Source: Armatimonadota bacterium (GTDB lineage Bacteria; Armatimonadota; Hebobacteria; CAIYQO01). From it: a stretch of 49,326 nt of DNA. The notes under the pieces were generated by a model, which was not told the DNA's origin, made no database searches, and worked only from the letters and a program-made list of their open reading frames with translations. The stretch lies in NCBI GenBank assembly GCA_029553475.1, contig JAKPKV010000107.1, forward strand, positions 1 to 49,326, in the 5' to 3' direction. This document shows positions 1 to 25,240 of the stretch, one piece after another (the stretch's first letter is position 1; each line of letters begins with the position of its first letter). A program made the translations under genes and the position numbers.

Positions 1-1
1 A

Positions 2-385
2 GCGGCCTGGGCTCGTGCGACTACTTCAACTGATTGTACTCAAATTCAAAAATATTTCCCTTGGATTACTAACATAAAAAAATGTTACTATACAAAAGGC
101 TATGTGCGTTATACTGATTTTCCGTATCCATATATTAGCGCTATAGATGGATATCTCTGGTTAAATAATGATGATTTACTAAAGTATACTGATGGAAAAT
201 ATGCGACCGAAGTTGAAGCGGGGTGGATACCTCCCTTCAAGCCAATGCTGTTGCCAGATGAACCATTATCATGGAAGCTTCTATTTATTCGCCGAAACGC
301 TTATGATCCTTCATATATCGAAACGATATATTATGAAGATAGTATTAGGTTACTATACTTCAGATTAAGATGTGAAGAGGTGTAA
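2..385 (+). CDS. Unrecognised gene, 5' end outside the window
   Basis: The frame is open from the first bases of the window and ends at TAA 383-385, so the start is probably to the left; an internal GTG at 104 is the only in-window start and lacks a convincing ribosome site. The visible 127 residues are rich in aromatic and acidic residues (YPYISAIDGYLWL, SYIETIYYEDS) with no motif I recognise. The first ~30 bases are GC-rich and the rest AT-rich, so the frame may cross the edge of the AT-rich island, and the GC-rich part may belong to another gene (frame 1 ends at TGA 31-33). Its setting, AT-rich DNA next to an orphan immunity-like gene, suggests a toxin tip or immunity gene, but that is inference only. 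Confidence 0.4.
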   Translation, partial: AAWARATTSTDCTQIQKYFPWITNIKKCYYTKGYVRYTDFPYPYISAIDGYLWLNNDDLLKYTDGKYATEVEAGWIPPFKPMLLPDEPLSWKLLFIRRNAYDPSYIETIYYEDSIRLLYFRLRCEEV

Positions 386-431
386 ATGTGTATGTATGGA
401 TTGCTGGGTATAAAAATGTACCTGCAATGAT

Positions 432-665
432 GTGAGTGTTGATGAAGATGCATTAGATTTCCTGGGTATGCACTTGACTGCCCAGCACACTAGATGTAGT
501 ATCTCGACAAATAGGGGACAGCCTCTGGTGTCCCCTATTGCTCTAGATAACTATAGGATCAATCCTGATACAGCGTTGCAAGTTACTCTAATTGAGATGG
601 TAAATGACCAATTAGATGTTATTGATCTATGCGTTATGATTGATGACCCAAACTTATTGACATGA
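432..665 (+). CDS. Weak hypothetical ORF, possibly a decayed gene
   Basis: A 77-residue frame from GTG 432 to TGA 663-665. It has no clear ribosome site of its own. A second short frame starts at GTG 388 behind GAGG and stops at 433-435, so the two could be halves of one gene split by a frameshift. The frame contains an 11-bp perfect inverted repeat (510-539), unusual for a short coding region. Its stop overlaps the ATG of the next frame (ATGA at 662-665), which would suit translational coupling. No family recognised; it may not be a working gene. Confidence 0.22.
   Translation: MSVDEDALDFLGMHLTAQHTRCSISTNRGQPLVSPIALDNYRINPDTALQVTLIEMVNDQLDVIDLCVMIDDPNLLT
510..539. repeat. Perfect 11-bp inverted repeat
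   Basis: AATAGGGGACA (510-520) is the exact reverse complement of TGTCCCCTATT (529-539) with an 8-base spacer GCCTCTGG. A degenerate relative, GATAGGGGGGCAGCCTCCAG, lies at 24491-24510 in the other toxin/immunity remnant region. There is no T-run, so it is not an obvious intrinsic terminator. Confidence 0.5.
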
Positions 666-926
666 TGGAATTTTATCGTTACCAAGATTACCTTTGGAGA
701 CAAGATCCCGATAAGTTAAAACGGCGTATTGAGGAATTAGCGATAGCACTCAGTATAACATCGATGAAAAATATACTAGAATTTATTGAAATGTCAAAAC
801 GTACCATTATTATTGCGCCGTTATATTTTTAATAATGTAAATATACACGAAACAGATAAGCTGAAAGCATATTTCTGTACTTACGGAATGGGGCTCTTCA
901 TATTGGGCGATAATGAACAACTGTAA
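662..926 (+). pseudogene. Small gene broken by a one-base frameshift at a T-run
   Basis: The frame from ATG 662 runs 56 residues (MMEFYRYQDYLWRQ...) to TAA 830-832. Removing one T from the T5 run at 826-830 would continue the protein as YFNNVNIHETDKLKAYFC and so on to TAA 924-926, giving about 87 residues. The joined product is plausible: an amphipathic helical N-terminal half (RRIEELAIALSITSMKNIL) followed by a strand-rich half ending MGLFILGDNEQL. I do not recognise the family. The ATG overlaps the stop of the preceding frame. A sequencing error in the homopolymer would make it intact; otherwise it is a pseudogene, which fits a row of discarded toxin/immunity cassettes. Confidence 0.45.
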
Positions 927-986
927 TACAGAGGACGATAGATTCCATGACAGAGTTATGGGGTTGCATCCAAAAAGGAGGTTTCA

Positions 987-1802
987 ATGCTCACAGCAGA
1001 AATGAGGAAGGCAAATCATAACTGGTGGATGGCAGTTGCCGAATCTATTGAAATTATTTGTTCGGATTATACTTATAATATTGAGGAGGATAGAAGGTTA
1101 TTTACCTCAATGGAAAAACAATCATTTTTTTATTTTTTAGATGGCATTAAATATTTGTTGCTAGAAAAATATGAGACTGCGAGTAGGTTATTATCCCTAT
1201 CCGCAGAAGCAGCCGAAACAGCAATAGAAAAAAGTGATTTTGATCAACCTAAAGGTATCAATGGGGCAAATAGCATCTCTGAAAAAAAATTAAGACAAGA
1301 ATATTATCTAGTAGGTCTAGTCGGTTCGTGGACAATGAAGTTGTACTCACAGTGGTTGCTAACTGGTTATTTTGATAGAGCATATTTAGAGCGAACAATG
1401 TGTTATCGTACAGAACTGCAAACACATTGCAGCACCAGTAAGGATAAATACCTTATTGCAGAAGATATGATGTTATACATGATTTCGGAGCGATATGAAG
1501 ATGCGATTGAACGCTATAAGATGAGATACCAACCCGCAAATAGCATCGAAAAATCTTCAAAATCTTCACCTGTTCACGTATTGCACTGTATATGTAAGCA
1601 TATAATTGGTGACGTGCGATACACAAAGTGTGCGTTATCAGGCCTGGAACATTGGTGTAAAGTAAGCCTGGATTGGGCGGGTATTTATACATCGATATCT
1701 TTGCTGGAAACAGAAAGAATTAACTGGCTATATCTATATTATAGGCTAATTCATGGAAATCAAGATATCCGAGAAATGATAATAAATTTGCGAGGCTGGT
1801 GA
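987..1802 (+). CDS. Orphan immunity-like all-helical protein
   Basis: A 271-residue protein starting at ATG 987, preceded by a strong AAGGAGG at 975-981. It is predicted all-helical with TPR-like spacing (FLDGIKYLLLEKYETASRL, AEDMMLYMISERYEDAIERY), no signal peptide and no membrane segment, so it should be cytoplasmic. Codon use is strongly AT-rich, unlike the GC-rich genes to the right, which suggests horizontal transfer. Size, fold class and position in an AT-rich cassette region resemble the helical immunity proteins of polymorphic toxin systems (Imm49-type is one candidate family), but no diagnostic motif was seen, so the role is inferred from context. No intact toxin lies immediately upstream in the window. 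Confidence 0.6.
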   Translation: MLTAEMRKANHNWWMAVAESIEIICSDYTYNIEEDRRLFTSMEKQSFFYFLDGIKYLLLEKYETASRLLSLSAEAAETAIEKSDFDQPKGINGANSISEKKLRQEYYLVGLVGSWTMKLYSQWLLTGYFDRAYLERTMCYRTELQTHCSTSKDKYLIAEDMMLYMISERYEDAIERYKMRYQPANSIEKSSKSSPVHVLHCICKHIIGDVRYTKCALSGLEHWCKVSLDWAGIYTSISLLETERINWLYLYYRLIHGNQDIREMIINLRGW

Positions 1803-2197
1803 CTTGATGATTCTCGCCTTATGGCGTCTCGCTTGGTTGATTAGTGTGGTGGTTTTGATTTGTAAGCACTATGAAGTAATCATGGTTCTGCTTTAAGGAA
1901 TAAGGCTCTAATTGAAAACACACTGTGGAAATTGGAAAGTTTTCTATATGTCATATTACCGCTTGAGGCCGGCAGCTTTACAGCGTTCATCCCCCTGGCA
2001 CCATTCAGGGGGCAGAGATTGCATATTAGATAACGCTGATGAACAGGGGAATGTCGTCACCTGTACCTGGGTAAGTCTCGATGTAGATGTGGTCATGTGC
2101 CGCAGTGCATGCACGGTTGGACAATTCCAGCGTGTAATTATTCACTAGAAACATTGTGATGGAGGCTTTCTGGAAGACGAAAGGAAGATATCATCAA
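1803..2197. other. Gene-free AT-rich stretch
   Basis: No frame here is convincing. A 78-codon frame from TTG 1912 to 2148 lacks a good ribosome site and resembles nothing known. The only structure seen is a 7-bp inverted repeat CCCCCTG (1991-1997) / CAGGGGG (2006-2012), which could end transcription of the upstream gene although no T-run follows. Confidence 0.4.
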
Positions 2198-11619: not shown

Positions 11620-14600
11620 ATGCCGTGGCACACGCGCGGACTGGTCCTCATCGCGCTCCTCACGCTCGGGGGCGCGGCGGTCCTGGGGGCGGCGGCGCCC
11701 GCCGTCACGCTGACGGTCTCCGCGACTGGGGTCACGGTCGGCGCGCCGGCGGCGGTGCGCTGGGCGGTGGACGTGTCGGGGGTGACAGACTGCGACGGCC
11801 GCGTCGCCCTCGTGCGCCCCGCCCTCGCCGTGCCGGCCGGCGAGGAGCCCCCGTCGGCGGACGACCCGCCATGTGACCGCAGCTTTTTCCCGCTGCTGGA
11901 TCCCGCCGGCCATACGGAGCAGGGCACGCGGGAGCCCGGCAATCGGTTGCCACTCACGCCCGGCACGTATACCTTTCGCGCGCGCGTCATCACCGCGGCG
12001 GGGGAGGCGCTGGACTCCGCGCCGGTGACGGTCACCGTGCGGGCGGCCGACGCCGCGGACGACGACGGTCTCCTCATGCTGTTGGAGACCGAACCGCTCT
12101 CCGCGGTGGCGCTCACCGCCACGCCGGCGTCCCCGCAGACGATGCTCACCCCCGTCGGCCTCACCGCTACCCCTGCCGGTGGCACGGTGGTCGAGTTCCT
12201 CTTCCAGGCCAAGCGCGGCCAGGAGAGCACCTGGACCACGCTACAGGACTACAACACCGACGACACCGTGGAGTGGACCCCCGCGGCCGGCGACTACTAT
12301 CGCCTGCGGGTGACGGCGCGCGAGCAGGGCACGGCGGCGCCGACCTACACCAGCGAGCTTGGCTACTACAACGGCGCGACGGCGCTCACCGCCCTCGCGC
12401 TGGCCGTCTCGCCCCCCTCGCCGCAGACCGGGACGCTGCCTCCTGACCCCGCCTACACGCTGACCGCCATCCCCACCGGCGGCGCGCATCTCCAGTACCA
12501 GTTCTGGGTGCGCCGCGCCGGGGAGGCGAGTTTTACGCAACTGCGCGACTATGCCGCCGGCCCGACCTGCACCTGGGCGCCCACCCAGGATGGGTACTAC
12601 AACCTGCGCGTCTTCTGCCGCGAGGAGGGCAGCCCCGGCGGCTACGATAAACAGACCACCATCCGCGACTACGTGAACGCCACCCCGCTCACCGCGCTGG
12701 CCTTGAGCGCCAACCCCGCCTCGCCGATGCTGACCGTGCCGCCTGACGATCCCATCACCCTCACCGCGGCCCCGACCGGCGGCCTCAACCTGGAGTACCG
12801 CTTCTACGTGAAGCGCGGACGGGACGCCAGCTACACCCTGGTGCAGGACTACAGCGCCGCCGACACCTACGCCTGGACGCCGACGGTGGCCGACTGCTAC
12901 CTGCTGATGGCCTACGCCCGCGAGGTGGGCAGCGCCCTCACCTACGACGCGACGACGGCGACCGCCTACTACGTGGGCTACCAGCCCCTCACCGGCGTGG
13001 CGCTGAGCGCCCAGGAGAGCTCGCCCCAGCCGCTCCAGACCCCCATTCACCTCACCGCCACGCCCACCGGCGGGGCGAACCTGGAGTACGAGTTCGCGGT
13101 GAAGCGCGGCGCGGACAGCGCCTGGACGATCCTGCGCGCATACGGCGCGGGCACCACCCTGACGTGGACGCCGGCCGAGGCGACCTACTACCGGCTGCGG
13201 GTCTCCGCGCGCGAGGTGGGGCGCACCGGCGGCATACAGACGGCATCGCTGGACTACTATATCGGCACGACGCCGCTCACCGCGGTGGCGACGAGTGCCG
13301 ACCCGGCCTCGCCGCAGGCCCCGCAGACCCCCATCACCCTCACCGCGGCCCCTACGGGCGGCGTGGCGCCGGAATACCGCTTCTGGATCAAGCGCGGGCA
13401 GGAGGCGGACTGGACGGACGCCCGCGACTACGCGACGACCGCCACCCACGTCTGGACGCCGATGGTGGCCGATTTTTACCTCATCCGCGTATGGGCGCGG
13501 GAGACGGGCAACCCGGCGAGCTACCAGGTCATCGCCCCGCGCGTGCCCTATTATATCGGCACGACGCCGCTCAGCGCGGTCGCGCTCGCCGCCAACCCCA
13601 GCAGTCCGCAGCCGGTGCACGGCCCCATCACCCTCACCGCGACCCCGACCGGCGGCGCGGTGCCTGAATACAAGTTCCAGGTGAAGCGCGCCGGCGCCCC
13701 CACCTGGGTGACGCTGCAGGACTACAGCCCGACCGCCACCTGCCCGTGGACCCCCACCGTCCCCGATACCTATACCCTCCGCGTCCACGGGCGCGAGATC
13801 GGCAATGACCTGGTGAGCTATAGCGTGGCGGCGACGGTGACGTATGTCATTGGCACGCCGCCGACCGTCTCGCTGACCGCGCCGCCGCATGAAGCCGTGT
13901 ACCATGCTCCGACATCCGTGACGCTGACCGCTGATGCGGCCGATGATGGTGCCGTGGCCCGCGTAGAGTTTTACCAGGGGGCCACGAAACTCGGAGAAGA
14001 CACGACGGCGCCGTATAGTTACACTTGGGATGCTGTCCCCGCCGGGACCTACAGCCTCACCGCGGTGGCGATTGATGATATCGGCCTGGCCACGACCTCC
14101 ACGCCAGTAGAGATCACGGTCAATACGCGCCCGACGATCGTGCTTACCGCGCCGGCACCTGGTGAGAGCTTTTCCGCGCCCGCCAGCATCGAAGCCATCG
14201 CAACAGCGGAAGACGAAGACGGGACGGTCACACAGGTTGACTTCTACCACGGGACCACCTTGCTCGCGACGGATACAGCGGCGCCTTTCATCGTCTCGCT
14301 GCCGCAGGTGGACGAAGGCGTCTATACCCTTCACGCGGTAGCGACGGATGACCGGGGAGGGACGGCGGAGTCCGCCCCCATTACCTATCACATCAGACCG
14401 CTCAATGCGCCGGTCGTTCTCCTGACTGCGCCGGAAGCCGGACATGTTTTCGCGCCCGGTACAGATATTACCGTGACGGCCAACGCCTACGATCGCCTGG
14501 GCACCGTCACGAAAGTTGAGTTCTATCACGGCGCAACGAAACTGGGCGAGGACACCGAGACTCCATATTCCTGCCTCTGGACAGCGGTGCCGATGGGCGC

Positions 14601-17600
14601 CTACCTCCTCACCGCGGTCGCAAGGAATGATGCGGAGCAGACGTCGGTGTCAGCAGCAGTCGCGATCATCGTTGACACGGCGCCCACTGCCGCAGCCGAT
14701 GCCGCGGTGACTGACGAAGATGTTGCCGTCACGGTTTCCGTGTTGGCGAATGATGCTGGTTTGAACGGACAGGCGCTGACCGTGACCGCCTGCACCGCCG
14801 GCTCGCATGGAACGACGCAGGTGAATCCCAATAACACGGTGACATATACACCAAACCCGGATTGGTCCGGCACGGATTCCTTCACCTATACCGTTCGCGA
14901 TGAGTTGGGACTGGAATCAATCGGACAGGTGACGATTACCGTGACCGCGGTCACCGATGTCCCACGTGTGACGTTGGCAACCCCGGCGGATGGCGCGCGC
15001 CTCGAACGACCGGCAGCCATCCAACTGGGCGCCACCGTGGACTGTCCCGATGGCACGGTGACGAAAGTCGAGTTCTACCAGGGTTCGACGAAACTCGGTG
15101 AAGATACCACCGCGCCATACAGCTATACCTGGCGCGATGTCGCGCTCGGTGAGTATACCCTCACCGCCGTGGTGATCGGCTCCACTGGACAAGCGACGTC
15201 GAATGCCGTGACGATCACGGTTGGCGAGAGCCTCCCCGCACCACTGATCACCCTGAATGCTCCGAAAACCGGCTCCGTTTTAGCCGCACATTCGGCAATC
15301 ACCCTGACGGCAATACCTGATACGACTATTGGTATTGTGCAGAAAGTCGAATTCTTCGCAAACAATGTCAAAGTCGGCGAAGATACCAATGGGACGGACG
15401 GCTGGTCAGTCGCCTGGACCGGTGGCGCCGCGGGTTTCTACGAACTCACCAGCGCTGTCACCTATCTGGAAGAGGAACGCCTGCTGGGGGAGAGCAGCTT
15501 TGCGAAATTGCTGTTCCCGAATCAGCAACTATTTACGGCAAACGAAACGACAGGAAGTCAGACTTCACCTTCGACTTCGGTGCAGCTTCAGGATCAAATA
15601 AATTGCCTGCCAACTGTCACAATCACGCAACCGACCGATGGTGCGAGCATCGCCACAAATATGTCGGTCATCATCTCCGGAACCGTCACCGATGACGACG
15701 GCGTCGTCACTGCCGTTGCCATCCAGGATACCGTTGGCGGGCGAACCACGGAATATGCCGCAGCGTTGGCAAAGAATGGGCAGACGTGGGTGAAAGAGCT
15801 GACCTTCACCACACCAGGCACGCATACCCTCACCGTCAGGGCGACGGATAACACATCCGGCATCGGCACCAGTTCCCCGCTCACTCTGTATGTCGCCAAC
15901 CCGGCACCGTCAGTCCGGATCGTCTCGCCGGGGGTGAAGCAGGCGGACGGCAGCTACTGGACGGCGATGAACAGACCGACGAAAGTTCCGCTCGTCGCTG
16001 AAGCCTATGATACCAATGGCTCGATTGACGCGGTGACCTTCTATGTGGAGCGTGTCGCCACCGGCGCGCGCATCGCGGCGGTGCCGGGACACCTTGTCGA
16101 ACATTCGCATCACTGGACGGGGGAATGGAATTGTAGTGCGTTGGTCACTGGCCCGTTCGGAGATTATCGCATCTATGCCGTCGCTGAAGATAATGAATCC
16201 ACTTCCGTCCAGTCCCAAACGGTGACGGTGTTGTATAGCAGTCTTCCGGCTCTCAATATCCAGGCGATTGAGCCGTGGGTGCATGGCAGCGGCACCATGA
16301 CCCTGTATGAATGGCTCGAAATGGGCACGACCTATCAGATCACCGCCAACGCATTCGATGTCATCACGCCAAACCCTGAACTCAAACTCTATGTTGATTA
16401 CACGTTGGCAGGCCCATTGACCGGTACCTATCAAGTTCCCTGGAGCGGCACGCTGCGCGGCATCCCGTATTCGTTTTCCGTGCGTGGCACCGGGTCGGGG
16501 GGTGAGACACTCGGCGCCGAGTTCGCGTTGAGCCTGACGAATCCCGCGCCGGTGGGGTATATAACGCAACCGGTGGGAACCGGCGCCTATCCGCCCGGTC
16601 AGCTCGCGCTCAAGGGGTATTTCTACGATGTCAATAATCCCGTCACCACTGTGACCGCGTGCCTGTATGATGATTTCAATGGCAACCTGCTCCAGCAGCA
16701 ACCGCTGACGACGGATGGCACCCCCTTCGGGTGGACCGGCGCCATGACGATCAATGATCCCGGCACCTATTACCTCGAGTTCTACACGCAAGACCCGCAT
16801 GGCGACATCGGCGCGCCGGCGACGTACCTGACGATTACCGCGGATGCCACGCCCCCCGCGCCGGGCACCCCACCGCAAGGGCCGCACGTCACCGTCCTGT
16901 CGCCAACGCATGATCCCCAAGTAAATCCGCACAAGGCGTTCCTCATCAACCCCAATACCATCGTCTTCACCGGGCGCGCCTTTGATTTGACAAGACCACT
17001 GACCACCATGACGTTCACCGTCAACGGCCCCGGCGGGACAACCTGGACGAAATCCCTCCAGTGCGGCGCCGGCATCAATACGAAAACTGTCGTATTCCCG
17101 GATGCCACCTGGACGCCGGCGCCGCCGACATACCTGCCGCTGGGCGACTATACCGTCACCGTTCACGCGACGAACGACCAGGCAGTCAGCGGGCAGGCAT
17201 CCGCGCCATTTGAAGTGAAGAACCTGAATCCGATGATCGAGATCACCGCGCCGGGAGCGGACGCGGAAATCACCACCCCGGCGGTGGTCAAGATCGGACT
17301 GACCGCGTCTGAATATAACGGCTTCCTGACGGAAGTCGAATTCACGGTACGAAACGCAAGCGGGCAGGTGGTCTGGAACCGCCCGCATTGGACGGGAAGC
17401 TCGATCACCGGACGGCACGGCTCCTACACCGCGACGCGCTCCTTCTCACCGGGAGATGACTTGCTCACGAAAGCACTGGCGCCCGGTACCTATACCATCA
17501 CCGCGACCGCTACCGATAACGAGGGCGGCACGGCGACGGCGACGCGCATCTTCACGGTCGTCAACCCGAAACCGGCGGTCACCATCACGTATCCCGCCAA

Positions 17601-20600
17601 CAATATGAATTTCCCGCAGTCACCGCTCATGCTCGTCGCGCATGCGATCGCCACCGACATCAACGGCCTGGCGGCGCCGACGGTGACGTTCGTCCTGCGC
17701 AAGGGCGGTTCCGGTGATGCCATCTTCAAATCCGTCACGGATGTGCAGGCGCCGTATGTCGGGACAATTCCCAACCTGCCGCCGGGCAGCTACACGCTCG
17801 TCGCGGAAGCCGAAGATGACGATGGATCGGTCACGGTATCGCCAACCATCCCGTTCACCGTCGGGCCCGTTCCGCCGCCACAGCGGAAATCGGAGCCGAC
17901 GGACGGCGATCCGGTGAACCTGCTGCGCGGTGAAGAGCAATACAGCGCGCCGGACCTGGCCGTCTATAACCCGAAAGGCATTCACGTCGCCTTCACCCGC
18001 TTCTATTCGACCGCGCTGGCCAAGCGCTGGCAGCCGGCGCCACTGGCCAAAGACGAAGAGGACGATCCCCTGTTGATCGCGGGATTGACGATGACGGGAT
18101 CAACGGGACAGCCGGAGTATGCGCCGGTGGCGCATACGATTGCCGAACCGGGTTGGCTGACGCAGATTTTCGTGCTGAATGGCGAACCCGCCTTCAGCAA
18201 GGCACGGTCCTGCTCTGGCGGCCTGACACCCGGCTGGACGCATAATTATGATGTCTCCTACGTGATTGACCCGGACACGGGGGACGTAGTCGTTCGCTTC
18301 CCCAACGGCGGGGAAGAGCGGCTGACGCCGCCCGCCGGCGGTGACGGCACGGTCAGCCTGACGCCAGCGGCCGGCGCCGCCTTCAGCGCGAAAGGCCAGC
18401 GCGTCGGCGGCGACTTCTCGTCCATCACCTTCACCTGGGCGGACGGGACGCAATGGGTGCTCACCGCGGCGGAATGCCGGCATCTCGCCACGATTCGCAA
18501 TGCGGTCGGGCAGTCTATCAAACTTGACTGGGCGCAGCTCCCCGATGGTCTGCCGGGTTTGCAGAGCATCAGCGACTCGGCGGATGACCCGCTGCTGACG
18601 CTGACGTATGCCGGCAGCACGCTCGCGTCCATCACCGATGAACGACAAGAGCGCACGGTGGCGTATACGTATGGCGATGTGTCCCGGCCGTGGCTCGAGA
18701 CGGCGTCGCACTTCAACAGCACCGACCCGGCGCTGGAATATACCTATCACCCGTCTAGCGACATCCCGCTGCTGACCTCCGTCAGCGCGCCGAGTCCGGT
18801 GGATGGGGCGCTGCAGGTTGAGACGCGGCTCACCTACAGTGACGGCGGCACGGCGGCCAGCACCGCGGACTGGAAAATCACCGGACAGACGAACGTCAGT
18901 GGGACCTGGCGCCAGTACCTGTATCGGGACGGCGAGACGGAGGTGCGCGTCTTTGACAGCGGCGATAACCTCCTCACCCGCTGGGTCAAACATTTTGATG
19001 CGGAGGGGCGGGAGACCGGCACCACCGACGCGGCCGGCGCCAGCTCGGCAACGACCTACGGCGACGCGCGTTTCCCGAACAAGCCGACGGCCTTCACCGC
19101 GAAAGACGGCAAAACGGTGAGCATGGCCTACGATGCGCTGGGCAATATCCAGAGCGTCACCACGCCGCTCGGCACCACGGTCACGGTCTACACCTACAGC
19201 GCGCCCGGTACGAATGCGCCGCTCGGACGGCTGCTACAGGCGCAGCACGGCGCCAAGCCGCCGATGGTCTTCACCTATGATCCCGATGGCCTGCTGCACA
19301 CCGCCACCGCGCCCGCGCCGGGGACGCTCGAAGGCCAGCAGACGTATGACACGGTCACCACCACCTATACCTATGACAACCTGGGCAATATTCTCACCAT
19401 CACCGGCCCGGGCAACGATCCGAACGACCCGGACGCCACCGTCACCGTGAGCTATGACTATACGGATGACACCTTCGCCGCCGACCCGGTGATCGGGCAA
19501 ACCGCGCGCGCGGGACAACCGCTCAAGGTGTCGCAGATCGTGAGCGGCGTCGAGCGCGCCACCCACTTCCGCTACAACTTCCAGGGGCAGCTCACCCCCT
19601 ACCTGCAGCGCGTCTATGACGGCGAGGGGCACCGGACCAGCTACGCCTACAACATCGCCGGCCAGGTGACGGACGTCGTCCTCCCCGCCACCGGACAAAC
19701 GGGACCGGGGCAGAGCCGGCTGGCTACGGAATATCGCTACCCCGGCGGGCCGGTCACCAGCAGCACGCTCTACGACGAGCAGGCGCCGCCGCAGGCCGTG
19801 CGGTCAGTGGCCTATCAGTACGACAGCGCAGGGCATATCGTCACCCGCACCGGCAACGTCGAGCAATCGTCCACGCAGTACGATGCGTTGGGGCGGATGA
19901 CGGCGCTCGTGCACCCGAACAACATTCCCACCGTATACTACTACGACGGCCTCGGTCGGCTGGCGACGACGGTCTATCCCGATGGGCGGGAGGTGCGCTT
20001 CACCAGCTATGACGCGGCGGGCCGCCTGCTGCAGCGGGTGGTGGAGAACGGCGCCGCCGATATCGTCACCGAGCTGACGTATCACGGCGCCACCGGGCTG
20101 CTGGCGAGTCTCAGCGTCCCCAACGGCACCGCGCCCGACGTCAGCTTCACCTACAATACCGACGGCACGCTGGCGAGCACTGCCACCGCCGGCGTGGGCA
20201 CGAAGAGTTTCACCTACGACGCCCTCGGGCACGTCCTCACCGCCACCACGACCTATGATGGCGTCGCGCCGCTCACCCTTAGCTATGACTATTACCGCAA
20301 CGGCCTGCGCAGCGCGATGCAAACCCCGGCGACGGCTACGCCGAATGCCGGGCTCTTCCGCTACTTCTACAATGAGGCGGGCCAGGCCACCCAGCAGGTG
20401 GACGCGCTGGACCTGTCGGCGGCATGGGCCTATCGGCTGAACGGCTGGCTGCAGACACAGACGCTGTCGAACGGGCAGACGCCGGTGGCGGCCACCGCCT
20501 ATACGCAGAACGCCGCCGGGCAGCTCACCGCGCTGCTCAACACCGGGCCGGGGCTGACCGTCCTCTCGAGTTTCACCGGCCTCGGCTACGACGGCGCCGG

Positions 20601-22980
20601 CAATCGCATCAGCCTCACGGCGTCGTTCCCGGATCAACCGACGCGTTTCAGCGGCGAGACCGCCTACACCTACGACGCGCTGGATCAGCTCTTCCAGGAG
20701 GTGAGCGCGCGCGACGGCGGCTACGGCCACGATTTCGTCTACGATCCCGCCGGCAACCTCCTCCAGCACCGCACCGGCAGCAACCCGCGCCTCTACGACG
20801 AAATGAACCGCTGGATCGGCGAGCTGGTGGACCACGTGCCGGACTACAGCGGCTTCCAGTACGACGCCCTCGGCAACCCGAACACCTATCGCGGCGTGAG
20901 CCTCGTCTTCGATGAGGCGAACAGCCTGCGGCAGTACGGCGCCGTCTTCAGCGCCGGCTACACCGGCGACGGCCTGCGCGCCTGGACCGGCCCGGCCGGG
21001 GCAACGCTGACCGAGCGCACCTACTTCCTCTACGACGGCCTGGAGCCGGTATGCGAGGTACAGGTGGACGCGCAGACCGGCCAGCCCTTCGTCACCGCGC
21101 TCAACTGTTTTGGCGCCGGCGGCCTCTACGCCAGGGCGGTCTACAACGCGGGCACGGAGAGCTATGTCCCCCGCCTCTACACCTTCGACCCGCAGGGCAG
21201 CGTCGCCCAGCGCCTGGACGCGCAAGGCACCGTCCTCGCCAGCGATCTCTACGACGCCTGGGGCCGCCTCCTCGCCTGCCGCGACGCGAACGACGACCCC
21301 TTCCCGCTCGCCGATGACCCCTGGGGCTACAAAGCCGAACACGGCTACTACACCGACCGCGAGACCGCGCTCCTCCTCTGCACCTTCCGCTACTACGACC
21401 CGGAAGCCGGCCGCTTCCTCACCGAGGACCCCATCGGCTACCTGGGCGGGCTGAATGTGTATCGGTACTGCGAGAATGATCCGGTCCAGCTTGCCGACCC
21501 GTTGGGGTGGTGCCCGGAATATAGCGGCGATGTGGGTGACGATTTCCCGATGAGTCCAAAGGATTTACACCGGGATTTCTTTCAAGCGATTCATAAAGGG
21601 GCTGGTACCACCCGTAAAGGGATGGAATTTTATCTGAATGTCCTCAACCCGGTGGAGAATGCCCGCCAGGCTGCCACCGGGAGGGACCTCTGGAACAACG
21701 AGATGAGTGCCGGCGACCGCACGATAGCAGCAATAGGGTGCATGCCGATTGGCGGTGTGGCAAAGGCTGGAAAAGCAGCGGCCAAAGTGGGAGATGTGAT
21801 TGATGTTGCAAGTAAAGCATCGAAAAATGACAATGCAATTAAGTGCTTTGCCAAGGGTATCTGTTTCGTAGCTGAGACACCAGTCGTCGTCTCCGATAGC
21901 GCAAGCCGCAGCCAAGTAAAGCTGTTAATGAAGACGTCATGGGCACATTGCCCGGTATTCGCTCATCTACTAAGTAGCAAATGTGCACTACTATTCCTGA
22001 TGGGTGTTCTCTTGTTCTTATTAAGCGCTATGATGCAAACACTGAGCGGAACGTCTGCGGCAATGGTGATGTGTACCAGCAACTGGCGTACACGTGGCTG
22101 GTGGGGTCTGCTCATCCTTGCCGGCGTGCTGTTTGGCGGAGCCGGCGCCCTGCGCCTGCCCCTTGCCGTCGGCGCCAATGTGGTCGCACGGGAGAATGCG
22201 CACGGCGGCACGGAAGTCCTCACCCGCCTGCCCGCCGTCCCCGCACATATTGACCTGGAGCAGTACCCCTTCCCCACGTCGCCTATCGAGACCATCACAC
22301 AGGGCCAGCAGGTCGTCACGCGTAACCCGGTAACCGGCACGACCGAGACTAACACCGTCGTCCGCACCTTCCAACGCACGGCCTACGAAATCATCCAGTT
22401 AGACCTCGCCGATAAGACCACCGGGAAGGCCGTGGAGAGTCTTCGCGGCACGCCGGAGCATCCCTTCTTTACACCCAATGGCATGGTGGAGATGGGTCAG
22501 CTCACGCCGGGCATGGAAGTCTGTACCCGCAATACCGATAAACGCCTGATCATCAAAGCGGTGACGCGGGAGCAACATCCAGAAGGGATACCGGTATATA
22601 ATTTTGAGGTTGAGGATGACCATACCTATTTTGTGGGGCAGGCGGGTGGCGGAGCATGGGTGCATAACCGATGCTATCCGATAATAATCGACCCAAGAAC
22701 AAGGAAGCCTATTTCATTTCCCGATGGTCAACTTATTCGGATACCTAAAGATCAACGAGTCAATTGGGGATCAATTGAAAGGGCCGAATACATAGCAGAA
22801 TGGTATCGAAGAGGATATCAAACCCCTGCAGGTGGTTGGAGTAAATATCATATCCATCATATTAAACCACGAGAATTTGGAGGAGGCAATGATTTTGACA
22901 ACCTTGTACCCGTATTAAGTGAACAACACCCTGAACTTAATAGTTTCTGGCGTGATTTTCCATACGAGGTATCACCGTGA
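11620..22980 (+). CDS. Giant secreted Rhs polymorphic toxin with Hint domain and HNH nuclease tip
   Basis: 3786 residues. ATG 11620 is chosen over the open frame upstream because CCAGGAGG precedes it and a Sec signal follows (MPWHTRGLVLIALLTLG). Order of parts: six ~98-aa Tyr-rich repeats (about residues 160-747); a long series of bacterial Ig-like domains (about 748-2085) with one cadherin-like tandem unit (VSVLANDAG...SGTDSFTYTV); an Rhs entry domain starting GDPVNLLRGEEQYS (about 2090); YD repeats; the Rhs core end YYDPEAGRFLTEDPIGY to DPLGW (Trp3297), holding the Asp residues of core self-cleavage; a pre-toxin helical region; a Hint domain (Cys3415 to Asn3683); and a 103-residue AT-rich tip with HIHHIKPREFGGGNDFDNL (His3744, 3746, 3747), an HNH nuclease signature. 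It should be exported, display the tip outside the cell and release it by self-cleavage into a rival cell. The stop overlaps the SUKH immunity gene (GTGA). Confidence 0.93.
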   Translation: MPWHTRGLVLIALLTLGGAAVLGAAAPAVTLTVSATGVTVGAPAAVRWAVDVSGVTDCDGRVALVRPALAVPAGEEPPSADDPPCDRSFFPLLDPAGHTEQGTREPGNRLPLTPGTYTFRARVITAAGEALDSAPVTVTVRAADAADDDGLLMLLETEPLSAVALTATPASPQTMLTPVGLTATPAGGTVVEFLFQAKRGQESTWTTLQDYNTDDTVEWTPAAGDYYRLRVTAREQGTAAPTYTSELGYYNGATALTALALAVSPPSPQTGTLPPDPAYTLTAIPTGGAHLQYQFWVRRAGEASFTQLRDYAAGPTCTWAPTQDGYYNLRVFCREEGSPGGYDKQTTIRDYVNATPLTALALSANPASPMLTVPPDDPITLTAAPTGGLNLEYRFYVKRGRDASYTLVQDYSAADTYAWTPTVADCYLLMAYAREVGSALTYDATTATAYYVGYQPLTGVALSAQESSPQPLQTPIHLTATPTGGANLEYEFAVKRGADSAWTILRAYGAGTTLTWTPAEATYYRLRVSAREVGRTGGIQTASLDYYIGTTPLTAVATSADPASPQAPQTPITLTAAPTGGVAPEYRFWIKRGQEADWTDARDYATTATHVWTPMVADFYLIRVWARETGNPASYQVIAPRVPYYIGTTPLSAVALAANPSSPQPVHGPITLTATPTGGAVPEYKFQVKRAGAPTWVTLQDYSPTATCPWTPTVPDTYTLRVHGREIGNDLVSYSVAATVTYVIGTPPTVSLTAPPHEAVYHAPTSVTLTADAADDGAVARVEFYQGATKLGEDTTAPYSYTWDAVPAGTYSLTAVAIDDIGLATTSTPVEITVNTRPTIVLTAPAPGESFSAPASIEAIATAEDEDGTVTQVDFYHGTTLLATDTAAPFIVSLPQVDEGVYTLHAVATDDRGGTAESAPITYHIRPLNAPVVLLTAPEAGHVFAPGTDITVTANAYDRLGTVTKVEFYHGATKLGEDTETPYSCLWTAVPMGAYLLTAVARNDAEQTSVSAAVAIIVDTAPTAAADAAVTDEDVAVTVSVLANDAGLNGQALTVTACTAGSHGTTQVNPNNTVTYTPNPDWSGTDSFTYTVRDELGLESIGQVTITVTAVTDVPRVTLATPADGARLERPAAIQLGATVDCPDGTVTKVEFYQGSTKLGEDTTAPYSYTWRDVALGEYTLTAVVIGSTGQATSNAVTITVGESLPAPLITLNAPKTGSVLAAHSAITLTAIPDTTIGIVQKVEFFANNVKVGEDTNGTDGWSVAWTGGAAGFYELTSAVTYLEEERLLGESSFAKLLFPNQQLFTANETTGSQTSPSTSVQLQDQINCLPTVTITQPTDGASIATNMSVIISGTVTDDDGVVTAVAIQDTVGGRTTEYAAALAKNGQTWVKELTFTTPGTHTLTVRATDNTSGIGTSSPLTLYVANPAPSVRIVSPGVKQADGSYWTAMNRPTKVPLVAEAYDTNGSIDAVTFYVERVATGARIAAVPGHLVEHSHHWTGEWNCSALVTGPFGDYRIYAVAEDNESTSVQSQTVTVLYSSLPALNIQAIEPWVHGSGTMTLYEWLEMGTTYQITANAFDVITPNPELKLYVDYTLAGPLTGTYQVPWSGTLRGIPYSFSVRGTGSGGETLGAEFALSLTNPAPVGYITQPVGTGAYPPGQLALKGYFYDVNNPVTTVTACLYDDFNGNLLQQQPLTTDGTPFGWTGAMTINDPGTYYLEFYTQDPHGDIGAPATYLTITADATPPAPGTPPQGPHVTVLSPTHDPQVNPHKAFLINPNTIVFTGRAFDLTRPLTTMTFTVNGPGGTTWTKSLQCGAGINTKTVVFPDATWTPAPPTYLPLGDYTVTVHATNDQAVSGQASAPFEVKNLNPMIEITAPGADAEITTPAVVKIGLTASEYNGFLTEVEFTVRNASGQVVWNRPHWTGSSITGRHGSYTATRSFSPGDDLLTKALAPGTYTITATATDNEGGTATATRIFTVVNPKPAVTITYPANNMNFPQSPLMLVAHAIATDINGLAAPTVTFVLRKGGSGDAIFKSVTDVQAPYVGTIPNLPPGSYTLVAEAEDDDGSVTVSPTIPFTVGPVPPPQRKSEPTDGDPVNLLRGEEQYSAPDLAVYNPKGIHVAFTRFYSTALAKRWQPAPLAKDEEDDPLLIAGLTMTGSTGQPEYAPVAHTIAEPGWLTQIFVLNGEPAFSKARSCSGGLTPGWTHNYDVSYVIDPDTGDVVVRFPNGGEERLTPPAGGDGTVSLTPAAGAAFSAKGQRVGGDFSSITFTWADGTQWVLTAAECRHLATIRNAVGQSIKLDWAQLPDGLPGLQSISDSADDPLLTLTYAGSTLASITDERQERTVAYTYGDVSRPWLETASHFNSTDPALEYTYHPSSDIPLLTSVSAPSPVDGALQVETRLTYSDGGTAASTADWKITGQTNVSGTWRQYLYRDGETEVRVFDSGDNLLTRWVKHFDAEGRETGTTDAAGASSATTYGDARFPNKPTAFTAKDGKTVSMAYDALGNIQSVTTPLGTTVTVYTYSAPGTNAPLGRLLQAQHGAKPPMVFTYDPDGLLHTATAPAPGTLEGQQTYDTVTTTYTYDNLGNILTITGPGNDPNDPDATVTVSYDYTDDTFAADPVIGQTARAGQPLKVSQIVSGVERATHFRYNFQGQLTPYLQRVYDGEGHRTSYAYNIAGQVTDVVLPATGQTGPGQSRLATEYRYPGGPVTSSTLYDEQAPPQAVRSVAYQYDSAGHIVTRTGNVEQSSTQYDALGRMTALVHPNNIPTVYYYDGLGRLATTVYPDGREVRFTSYDAAGRLLQRVVENGAADIVTELTYHGATGLLASLSVPNGTAPDVSFTYNTDGTLASTATAGVGTKSFTYDALGHVLTATTTYDGVAPLTLSYDYYRNGLRSAMQTPATATPNAGLFRYFYNEAGQATQQVDALDLSAAWAYRLNGWLQTQTLSNGQTPVAATAYTQNAAGQLTALLNTGPGLTVLSSFTGLGYDGAGNRISLTASFPDQPTRFSGETAYTYDALDQLFQEVSARDGGYGHDFVYDPAGNLLQHRTGSNPRLYDEMNRWIGELVDHVPDYSGFQYDALGNPNTYRGVSLVFDEANSLRQYGAVFSAGYTGDGLRAWTGPAGATLTERTYFLYDGLEPVCEVQVDAQTGQPFVTALNCFGAGGLYARAVYNAGTESYVPRLYTFDPQGSVAQRLDAQGTVLASDLYDAWGRLLACRDANDDPFPLADDPWGYKAEHGYYTDRETALLLCTFRYYDPEAGRFLTEDPIGYLGGLNVYRYCENDPVQLADPLGWCPEYSGDVGDDFPMSPKDLHRDFFQAIHKGAGTTRKGMEFYLNVLNPVENARQAATGRDLWNNEMSAGDRTIAAIGCMPIGGVAKAGKAAAKVGDVIDVASKASKNDNAIKCFAKGICFVAETPVVVSDSASRSQVKLLMKTSWAHCPVFAHLLSSKCALLFLMGVLLFLLSAMMQTLSGTSAAMVMCTSNWRTRGWWGLLILAGVLFGGAGALRLPLAVGANVVARENAHGGTEVLTRLPAVPAHIDLEQYPFPTSPIETITQGQQVVTRNPVTGTTETNTVVRTFQRTAYEIIQLDLADKTTGKAVESLRGTPEHPFFTPNGMVEMGQLTPGMEVCTRNTDKRLIIKAVTREQHPEGIPVYNFEVEDDHTYFVGQAGGGAWVHNRCYPIIIDPRTRKPISFPDGQLIRIPKDQRVNWGSIERAEYIAEWYRRGYQTPAGGWSKYHIHHIKPREFGGGNDFDNLVPVLSEQHPELNSFWRDFPYEVSP
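12097..13860 (+). repeat. Six tandem ~98-residue repeats in the Rhs stalk
   Basis: Each unit begins with a phrase like PLTAVALSANPASPQ, continues with ITLTAAPTGG, a YRFWVKRG strand, LQDYS, a central W-T-P, Y-x-L-R-V and AREVG, and ends with YYIGTT. Spacing and aromatic pattern resemble the Y_Y_Y (triple-tyrosine) beta-sandwich repeats. DNA identity between units is moderate, so the copies are not recent. Probably a rigid extracellular stalk. Confidence 0.75.
21862..22668 (+). other. Hint autoprocessing domain interrupted by a two-helix hydrophobic insert
   Basis: The first Hint strand, CFVAETPVVV (Cys3415), is followed not by the usual short loop but by ~90 residues that include two hydrophobic helices, about residues 3455-3473 (CALLFLMGVLLFLLSA) and 3493-3518 (GWWGLLILAGVLFGGAGAL). 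The Hint fold then resumes: SPIETITQGQQVVT, VVRTFQRTAYEIIQL, TPEHPFFTPNGMVEMGQL, IPVYNFEVEDDHTYFVG and the terminal WVHN (Asn3683). All expected catalytic features (Cys1, TPEHPF His, terminal HN) are present, so cleavage before the nuclease tip is expected. Confidence 0.8.
22669..22980 (+). other. HNH-type nuclease tip (AT-rich)
   Basis: Residues 3684-3786 after the Hint Asn. The HIHHIKP...GG...NLVPVLSEQH pattern is the metal-binding histidine motif of HNH/Endonuclease VII-type toxins; the conserved Asn (NL) and trailing His (EQH) are in place. Base composition drops sharply from the GC-rich Rhs shell, as expected for an exchangeable toxin cassette. Confidence 0.85.
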
Positions 22981-23495
22981 ATTCATTGGTTACATTACGG
23001 AGACGTTTATCAGCTACAGGAATGGTTATTGTGCAAAATGAAGGGGGGTACATTAGCAAGGCAAAATGTATTTTTCGTCCAGGTGCGGAGACAAATGAAA
23101 TATCTTCCTTGGAAGGACAACTTGGTTTAACTATCCCCGATAGCTATCGTGAATTCCTTTCATATACAAACGGCGCAGTATTATTCAAGGAGCCAACGTA
23201 TGAGCAGTGGGGATGCGTTTTGCTTGGTACTGATGAAATCATAACCATCACAAAGAGGATCAGAAAATACTTTCATAACATCCCTCAACACTGGGTTGTC
23301 TATGCACAGTGGCTAGGGGATTGTGATATTCTACTATTTGATTTACACCACTCTAGTGAAATAGCATCGCCATATATCATAGACGGAGATACTGGATTGC
23401 CTGTACAGGAGTGGAAATATATTCATGGAGATTTTTCGATATGGCTTGACCGGTTAATCGTCGCGCAAGGTGCAAAGTATTGGCGCTGGTTGTAG
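22977..23495 (+). CDS. SUKH (SMI1/KNR4) family immunity protein
   Basis: 172 residues, starting at GTG 22977 that overlaps the toxin stop (GTGA), with GAGG at 22966-22969 as ribosome site. Translational coupling would keep antidote and toxin balanced. The SUKH core is visible: a leading helix SLEGQLGLTIPDSYREFLSY, the NGAVLF turn, a strand region with W-x-x-V, and later YAQWLGDCDILLFDL and DTGLPVQEW. SUKH proteins are the commonest partners of HNH-type nuclease toxins, so this should bind and block the tip encoded just upstream, in the cytoplasm. AT-rich codon use matches the toxin tip, and the pair was probably acquired together. Confidence 0.9.
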   Translation: MNSLVTLRRRLSATGMVIVQNEGGYISKAKCIFRPGAETNEISSLEGQLGLTIPDSYREFLSYTNGAVLFKEPTYEQWGCVLLGTDEIITITKRIRKYFHNIPQHWVVYAQWLGDCDILLFDLHHSSEIASPYIIDGDTGLPVQEWKYIHGDFSIWLDRLIVAQGAKYWRWL

Positions 23496-23520
23496 GGAAG
23501 GTTGATCACATAATCTAATT

Positions 23521-23804
23521 GCTGACCCGCTGGGGTGGCCTGATGAGGGGGGATGACGGCGACGATTTCTCGATGAGTTATACGGATATCCATTCGGATT
23601 TTTTATGGCGAGAAATACAGGGTCATGAACGGCAGGTAGGGCATGGAATTGTATTGAATACCCTTCAGAGACATGGCGCAGATTAGGAGAGCAACGGATA
23701 AAATTGACGATACTAGCGACCTTGATCCAAACATCACTCGCGACGATGTTGTTGCATTTGCACGCCAACTCGCTAACGAATATGGTTTGACTGTTCATTT
23801 TTAG
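23521..23804 (+). pseudogene. Displaced Rhs tip: core end plus decayed toxin
   Basis: GCTGACCCGCTGGGGTGG at 23521-23538 encodes ADPLGW, the exact end of an Rhs core, as at 21493-21510 in the intact gene. After a frameshift (first frame stops at 23554-23556), the next frame reads DDGDDFSMSYTDIHSDF, matching DVGDDFPMSPKDLHRDF just after the core of the intact gene. A further frame change leads to ITRDDVVAFARQLANEYGL and TAG 23802-23804, probably the end of a former toxin. Three frames in ~280 bases and no start make it non-functional. It is the relic of an earlier C-terminal tip displaced when the current HNH tip was acquired, followed by its likely immunity gene. Confidence 0.8.
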
Positions 23805-23814
23805 GAGGGCAGCG

Positions 23815-24465
23815 ATGGATTTTTCATCATTTTATCGTTTATGCAGTGCAGATAAAACGAATGCACTGCAAGTCGAAGCTACACCAGAAACATCAGCTTA
23901 TATTGGCCGTGAGACATTTGCGATTACAATGGGGATTAACGTCCCAGATCGAGTACTTACTTTTCGCCGAGTAGTCGGAAAGCAGCCAATGGACATTATC
24001 TCGTCGTCGTTTGTAAGTATCTATTTAATTTCTGGTAAAGTTGTCGACGTGTTGCGAGATAATAGGGTAACCGGCTGGACTACTTATCCAGTTCTCATTA
24101 AAAGCAACAGGGATAAATTTATTGACGGATATCACGGCTTGGTTGCCTGTGGACGATCTGGTTCTATTATTGATTCTATGAGTAAACATATCATCGAAAC
24201 GATTCCTCCACAAGGTAACCGAAAAACTCTTTTGCAACGTGAGGCATGGCTTGGTTTATATTTTGACATCAACATTTGGGATGGGTGTGATTTTTTCATG
24301 CCGGCGGATATTGGGGAAGAGACTGGGCATATATTTGTTACTGAAAAAGTAGTGAATATATTCCGTAATAAGAGACTTATAAACTTTAATTTTACCCCTT
24401 TATCAACCATTTATCAACCATTAAGCGTACATATATTGCAAAACAAGGATAATTCCGCTGAATAG
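23815..24465 (+). CDS. Orphan immunity protein next to a dead toxin tip
   Basis: 216 residues, ATG 23815 with TAGGAGGGC directly upstream, ten bases after the toxin relic ends. No signal or membrane segment, so cytoplasmic. Features include YRLCSADKTNALQVE near the start, SGKVVDVLRDNRVTGWTTYP, YHGLVACGRSG, and WDGCDFFMPADIGEETGHIF with VTEKVVNIFRNKRLIN near the end. The last two patterns recall the DUF1629/Imm11-Imm43 group of immunity proteins, a tentative match from memory. With its toxin decayed it is either a relic under weak selection or still protects against kin that carry the old tip. The intact reading frame and strong ribosome site favour continued use. Confidence 0.75.
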   Translation: MDFSSFYRLCSADKTNALQVEATPETSAYIGRETFAITMGINVPDRVLTFRRVVGKQPMDIISSSFVSIYLISGKVVDVLRDNRVTGWTTYPVLIKSNRDKFIDGYHGLVACGRSGSIIDSMSKHIIETIPPQGNRKTLLQREAWLGLYFDINIWDGCDFFMPADIGEETGHIFVTEKVVNIFRNKRLINFNFTPLSTIYQPLSVHILQNKDNSAE

Positions 24466-24487: not shown

Positions 24488-24709
24488 AGAGATAGGGGGG
24501 CAGCCTCCAGTGTTCCGTCTTTCGCTGGGCATCCTATGGCACAAGATATGGATGGCGCACTTGCTGAAGTGGAAGATACTTTCCATCGCAAACACTATCG
24601 GACGATACATATCAATACGGGAAAATTGTCATCCGGTATCAATCGCTCGAAGCTTGATCGGGAAAGAGCTAGATATTGGATGGAACGCGCATCCGATTTT
24701 GAAGATTAA
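24488..24709 (+). pseudogene. C-terminal fragment of another toxin tip
   Basis: The frame is open from 24488 to TAA 24707-24709 but has no N-terminal domain. It reads GHPMAQDMDGALAEVEDTFH, HYRTIHINTGKLSSGINRSK and ERARYWMERASDFED, a coherent basic C-terminus like those of nuclease-type tips; ATG 24536 is the only ATG. An overlapping frame from GTG 24510 is less protein-like. It lies 11 bases ahead of a broken SUKH gene, the usual toxin-then-immunity order, so it is read as the remaining end of a displaced toxin. Confidence 0.6.
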
Positions 24710-24720
24710 CGGAGCTTGAC

Positions 24721-25240
24721 ATGAGCATGAGACATTATGACGAGGCTGTTATCCTGATGCACAGACATGAGGAGTTAATGAAGTTCGTCGGCGAGCGTTC
24801 AGATGAGTTAATTCATCTTGGTGAATTAACACTTGGTGTTCAATTCCCTCCAACTTACAAACGTTTCTCGAAGGAATTCGGAGCTGGAAGCTTCGACATA
24901 TATACTTACTTTGGACTAATTGATGAGGACTTTTCACACTCCGGTATTCCAGATGCGATATGGTATACGCTAACAGAACGTATTGATTCGTCTCTCCCAG
25001 ATAGTTAGTAGTCATCCAAAATGATGGCGCAGGTAATCTATACTGCCTTGACACATCACAATCTAACGAAGAAGGTGAATATCCTGTGGTATTATTTATC
25101 CCAGGACTTGAACTAGCTCAGCAGGATTTTGACATTGTGGCTGATGATTTTGGAGCTTTACTATTAGAGAATACGCAATTTTTGCATCGAAAATCATTGA
25201 CTAGCATTTACTACCACAGCAGCGGCAAAAGGTGGAAATT
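24721..25240 (+). pseudogene. SUKH immunity gene broken by a one-base deletion
   Basis: ATG 24721, behind GGAG, gives 95 residues (LGELTLGVQFPPTYKRFSKE then GAGSFDIYTYFGLID, typical SUKH) ending at TAG 25006-25008. Adding one base near 25006 restores LVVIQNDGAGNLYCLDTSQ and EEGEYPVVLFIPGLE...DFGALLLENT, the conserved second half of SMI1/KNR4 proteins. So a single deletion has killed an otherwise complete immunity gene. It belongs with the toxin fragment just upstream. After the SUKH end the frame runs on into unrelated GC-rich sequence. Confidence 0.85.

Follow-up and report, generated by a model that had tools for sequence, protein, structure and literature searches.

The window (the whole stretch of DNA analysed here, 49,326 nucleotides from an Armatimonadota bacterium) contains a full-length Rhs/YD-repeat gene at 11620-22980 (RHS_repeat, PF05593, 2e-32). 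The gene and all of the features described downstream of it are on the + strand. Its reading frame is open from 11350, with 11620 as the likelier start, and its core ends with the motif ADPLGW at 21493-21510, after which the active tip begins. The tip comprises a pre-toxin linker (21511-21870) with a PT-TG match at 21649-21783, a PT-HINT autoprocessing domain (22285-22668; PF07591, 1.2e-16) and an HNH-nuclease-like toxin end (HIHHIKPREFGGGNDFDNLVP; 22671-22976) whose match to PF01844 (E 3e-4 to 2e-3) reaches the curated cut-off or falls just short of it. The presumed immunity gene of this tip is a SUKH-1 (SMI1/KNR4) gene at 22977-23495 (PF09346, 4.8e-14), which overlaps the last codon and stop of the tip by four bases. 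Within 21861-22668 there is also a Hint-like start motif, CFVAETPVVV, about 130 codons before the PT-HINT match, which covers the profile from position 11. These codons hold two hydrophobic stretches (about 21960-22050 and 22090-22160), and the Hint domain of the active tip is apparently split by an insertion.

Downstream of the rhs gene, on the same strand and starting 23 bases past the SUKH-1 stop, lies a remnant that we call fossil 1. Its first half (23519-23659) consists of a core end, with ADPLGW at 23521-23538, and a degenerate, frameshifted linker. As the earlier note on this DNA described, ADPLGW followed by GDDFSMSYTDIHSDF repeats the active junction; GDDFSMSYTDIHSDF starts at 23558, one frame off from ADPLGW. 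A DNA alignment of the two junctions had been set beforehand as the test of that reading. The local alignment of 21491-21639 with 23519-23659 had 69.8% identity over 149 columns and a score of 64, compared with a mean of 18.5 and a maximum of 33 for 1,000 dinucleotide-preserving shuffles. Only about seven core codons are kept in the relic, six of them ADPLGW, and about 120 bp of pre-toxin linker align beyond these six, the part common to both tips being 21511-21639 in the active gene. A BLASTN search of the window with the junction gave E=1.7e-7, and nowhere else in the window came close. TBLASTX returned three consistent blocks in successive different frames (joint E 1.7e-8), which bears out the claim that the sequence is broken in three frames and marks it as a frameshifted scar. 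The shuffles and the TBLASTX result rule out chance similarity of the two junctions. A repeat family as the source of the scar is ruled out by its occurrence as a single copy in the 5.27-Mb genome. When the linker was searched for in the 14 genomes of the class, it was found only in the genome of the window.

The second half of fossil 1 (23658-23804) is a single open frame that encodes a 48-aa C-terminal stub of a lost toxin, ending at a natural stop (...DDVVAFARQLANEYGLTVHF). The order within the relic is thus six core codons, about 120 bp of linker, a large deletion and the stub. The stub is unlike the active HNH end and bears a weak resemblance to the C-terminal helix of DUF2380/SitA6-type toxins. 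Scored against a profile of DUF2380 tips from the phylum, it ranked fourth among 10,001 sequences, 10,000 of which were its own shuffles, and it outscored all but one of 836 unrelated C-termini (five true DUF2380 ends having been left out of that comparison). The bit score itself is small (6-8 bits), so that a DUF2380/SitA6-type HNH toxin is the likely, not the proven, identity of the lost protein. What is left is the C-terminal helix pattern alone; the HH-x-x-P catalytic region and the W-N motif of these toxins are absent and, with the HH catalytic part gone, the toxin is therefore dead. Searches of the 291 genomes of the phylum, plasmids and the PDB, and a pattern scan of genome_contigs, found no relatives of the stub. 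DUF2380 itself was found in 15 genomes of the phylum, and in several of them DUF2380 tips are joined to Rhs cores. Of the 16 DUF2380 copies examined, 8 had a complete WDGSDF (Imm11-like) motif region within 900 bp downstream; in one further copy this region lay at the edge of the stretch read.

Ten base pairs separate the stop of the stub from the start of an intact gene for a 216-aa protein (23815-24465), which from its position is probably fossil 1's own immunity partner. We describe this protein only as Imm11/Gmx_para_CXXCG-like, since it has no direct match in Pfam and none above the curated cut-off of Imm11 (PF07791), and its relatives match weakly to marginally. Searches of genome_contigs and plasmids with the protein gave nothing useful. 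A profile of three sequences (the 216-aa protein and two remote relatives) had matches in 22 of the 291 genomes of the phylum, counting the genome of the window itself. One of the seed relatives matches Imm11 and Gmx_para_CXXCG weakly, other relatives found with the profile have a Gmx_para_CXXCG match at or near the cut-off, and the matches of the profile-found relatives to PF07791 or PF09535 are in general weak to marginal. The suggested relation of the 216-aa protein to Imm11 is therefore transitive, through the sequences of its relatives. Several of these relatives sit directly behind DUF2380 (SitA6-type) tips, and two of the nearest (G065 and G234) adjoin such tips.

A second relic, missed in the earlier note, follows. 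Fossil 2 (24488-24709) is a C-terminal stub of an LHH nuclease toxin (PF14411, 7e-9), with a match at 24530-24694 to profile positions 23-75 of 76 that scored 36.2 bits against a cut-off of 23.3. Positions 24527-24706 encode about 70% of the LHH domain; the 22 N-terminal profile positions, which include the LHH motif, are absent. Behind the stub, in the same toxin-then-immunity order as fossil 1 and the Imm11-like gene, is its SUKH immunity gene (24721-25206), which has a frameshift near 25,000; the first part (24721-25005) matches SUKH_5 (1.8e-8) and the second SUKH_6 (3e-5). From the HNH end to this broken gene, GC content is 0.39-0.47, compared with 0.67 in the Rhs core and 0.65 in the next gene. 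The claim that an old tip was kept downstream is borne out: the relic is a decayed Rhs tip with a probable immunity gene of its own, and the low-GC array holds at least one further remnant. With the active tip and SUKH-1, fossil 1 and the Imm11-like gene, and fossil 2 and the broken SUKH gene, there are three toxin-immunity layers in series, of which one is apparently active and two are dead. A second low-GC stretch (about 37%) occupies the left end of the window (1-2100), with an ORF at 987-1802.

Orphan modules are also present at other rhs loci, and further core pieces with different tips downstream were found in the same genome (contigs C93 and C3) and in a sister species (C30). At C93, a second core piece (860 bp, 83% identity) carries another tip and a third piece is broken; the core copies there diverge close to where the core ends. 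Several core pieces also occur at C3. In the sister species, two Rhs core-tip-immunity modules lie in tandem (L037, 4738-9535) with core parts that are 71% identical; the second immunity-like gene of this tandem encodes a pentapeptide-repeat protein. Five Rhs core-end fragments follow one another on the reverse strand of L038 (about 6.1-12.1 kb), in a complete genome of the same class. Elsewhere in the genome of the window, three tandem immunity-like genes, about 82% identical, lie behind a YwqJ-deaminase Rhs tip (L012, 8366-10050, - strand). We found no relative with the tip of fossil 1 itself still fused to an rhs core among the 291 genomes of the phylum or in the pattern scan of genome_contigs. 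A search for the same locus in the sister species through the neighbouring symporter gene turned up no more than a scrap at a contig end and a weak paralogue.

Fossil 1 is close to certain to be a decayed remnant of an Rhs tip. The likeliest account of its origin, and one that we consider probable, is that it was once fused to the active Rhs gene and was then displaced. The displacement is suggested by the arrangement of the locus and by precedent and, with no relative found to carry this tip, the former fusion to the Rhs gene of the window is something that we infer. A new module comprising core end, linker, Hint domain, HNH toxin and SUKH immunity gene would have entered ahead of an older module and pushed it downstream. 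The core, the start signals and the body of the toxin would then have been lost from this older module, in which the core-end/linker scar and the C-terminal stub remained. The Imm11-like gene would have stayed intact, plausibly as a defence against kin still armed with the old toxin. The LHH-nuclease/SUKH module behind fossil 1, which is also broken, would be older still. The earlier note had read the junction as direct evidence of exchange by recombination at the core end. This was too strong, as the homology passes DPLGW and only about seven core codons are left; with similarity running about 120 bp into the linker, the alignment does not locate the exchange point.

Because almost no core is kept in fossil 1 and its linker is only 70% identical to the active linker, an independently acquired module that was never fused here is the main rival candidate. 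A standalone toxin-immunity cassette with a short core end and linker would have been added downstream horizontally and would then have decayed, without ever having been the tip of this gene. The foreign composition of the array would fit such an origin, and standalone cassettes with the toxin ahead of the immunity gene are common (PMC3482391). Against this, the relic starts at the core end and retains the core-to-linker join in the right order, as a displaced tip predicts, and the route documented elsewhere is displacement (PMC2935791). We therefore regard separate arrival as unlikely, though as the strongest of the rivals. A more general idea, which we consider doubtful, is that tip modules in this lineage are exchanged through the shared post-core linker, whereas Enterobacteriaceae use long stretches of identical core; displaced tips would then keep the linker and almost no core.

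The scar could also be a local duplication of the active core end and linker, involving no former tip, with the stub being ordinary intergenic region. Demonstrable homology is indeed limited to the linker, and the stub has no strong relatives. This explanation is nevertheless very improbable, since the linker copies have diverged to 70% identity, the scar is immediately followed by a toxin-like C-terminal stub and an Imm11-like gene, and a second (LHH) stub and SUKH gene are built on the same plan. That the relic is a functional silent cassette able to recombine back onto the core and change the toxin, as Salmonella orphan tips can over 522 bp of 95% identity (PMC3967940) and as the long core copies at C93 of the same genome might allow, is scarcely credible and is largely refuted by the broken frame; the shared stretch here spans about 150 bp with 70% identity, and the greater part of the toxin is missing.

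Former fusion followed by displacement would make the locus a case of tip displacement with at least two fossil layers in a poorly sampled lineage (14 genomes in the class), far from Enterobacteriaceae, in which an intact immunity gene appears to outlive its own toxin. If this were confirmed across strains, the succession of tips replaced at a single locus could be read directly. Displaced or orphan Rhs tips are already well documented (Jackson 2009; Zhang 2012; Koskiniemi 2014), and the window is a clear but ordinary instance; with its extra fossil layer, its intact immunity gene and its linker-only scar, it serves well as an example but comes as no surprise.

The closest parallel is with the dissociated tips of Jackson et al. 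2009 (PMC2935791), whose comparative genomics led to the conclusion that incoming rhs tips displace incumbents and leave low-GC strings of dissociated tips. As there, the window has a low-GC region downstream of an rhs gene, in which tip fragments follow one another behind the active tip. In the Enterobacteriaceae studied by Jackson et al., however, associated and dissociated cores are identical within a locus, whereas here about seven core codons remain and the shared part is a broken, post-core linker at 70% identity. Near-identity of the core was an observation of that study in Enterobacteriaceae and does not enter into how an orphan tip is defined. When examined for core identity, fossil 1 had no long core fragment and 70% identity overall, which fits either age or a separate origin: either the displacement is old or the module came separately with its own linker.

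The orphan Rhs-CT/RhsI modules of Salmonella and other Enterobacteriaceae (PMC3967940) resemble fossil 1 in combining a tip that lacks start signals with a linked immunity gene, in lying downstream of the main rhs pair, and in the position of the junction at a DPxG motif. Koskiniemi et al. 2014 provided evidence that re-fusion of an orphan tip is possible. The Salmonella modules are intact, toxic and re-fusable, whereas fossil 1 is a dead stub. The likeness to the DUF2380/SitA6-type HNH toxins found on Rhs cores with Imm11-like partners (for example L070, L072 and L074) lies in the C-terminal helix pattern and the downstream Imm11-like gene; in contrast to them, just the last 48 residues are left in the window, and the HH catalytic part is missing. 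Finally, in Zhang et al. 2012 (PMC3482391), strings of immunity genes are interpreted as what tip exchanges left behind. The window shares with their polymorphic toxin cassettes the toxin-then-immunity order and has SUKH and Imm11-type genes as candidate remnants of earlier exchanges. In contrast to their strings, toxin stubs interrupt the immunity genes here, and the array is thus better described as a toxin locus with relics than as a polyimmunity locus in their sense.
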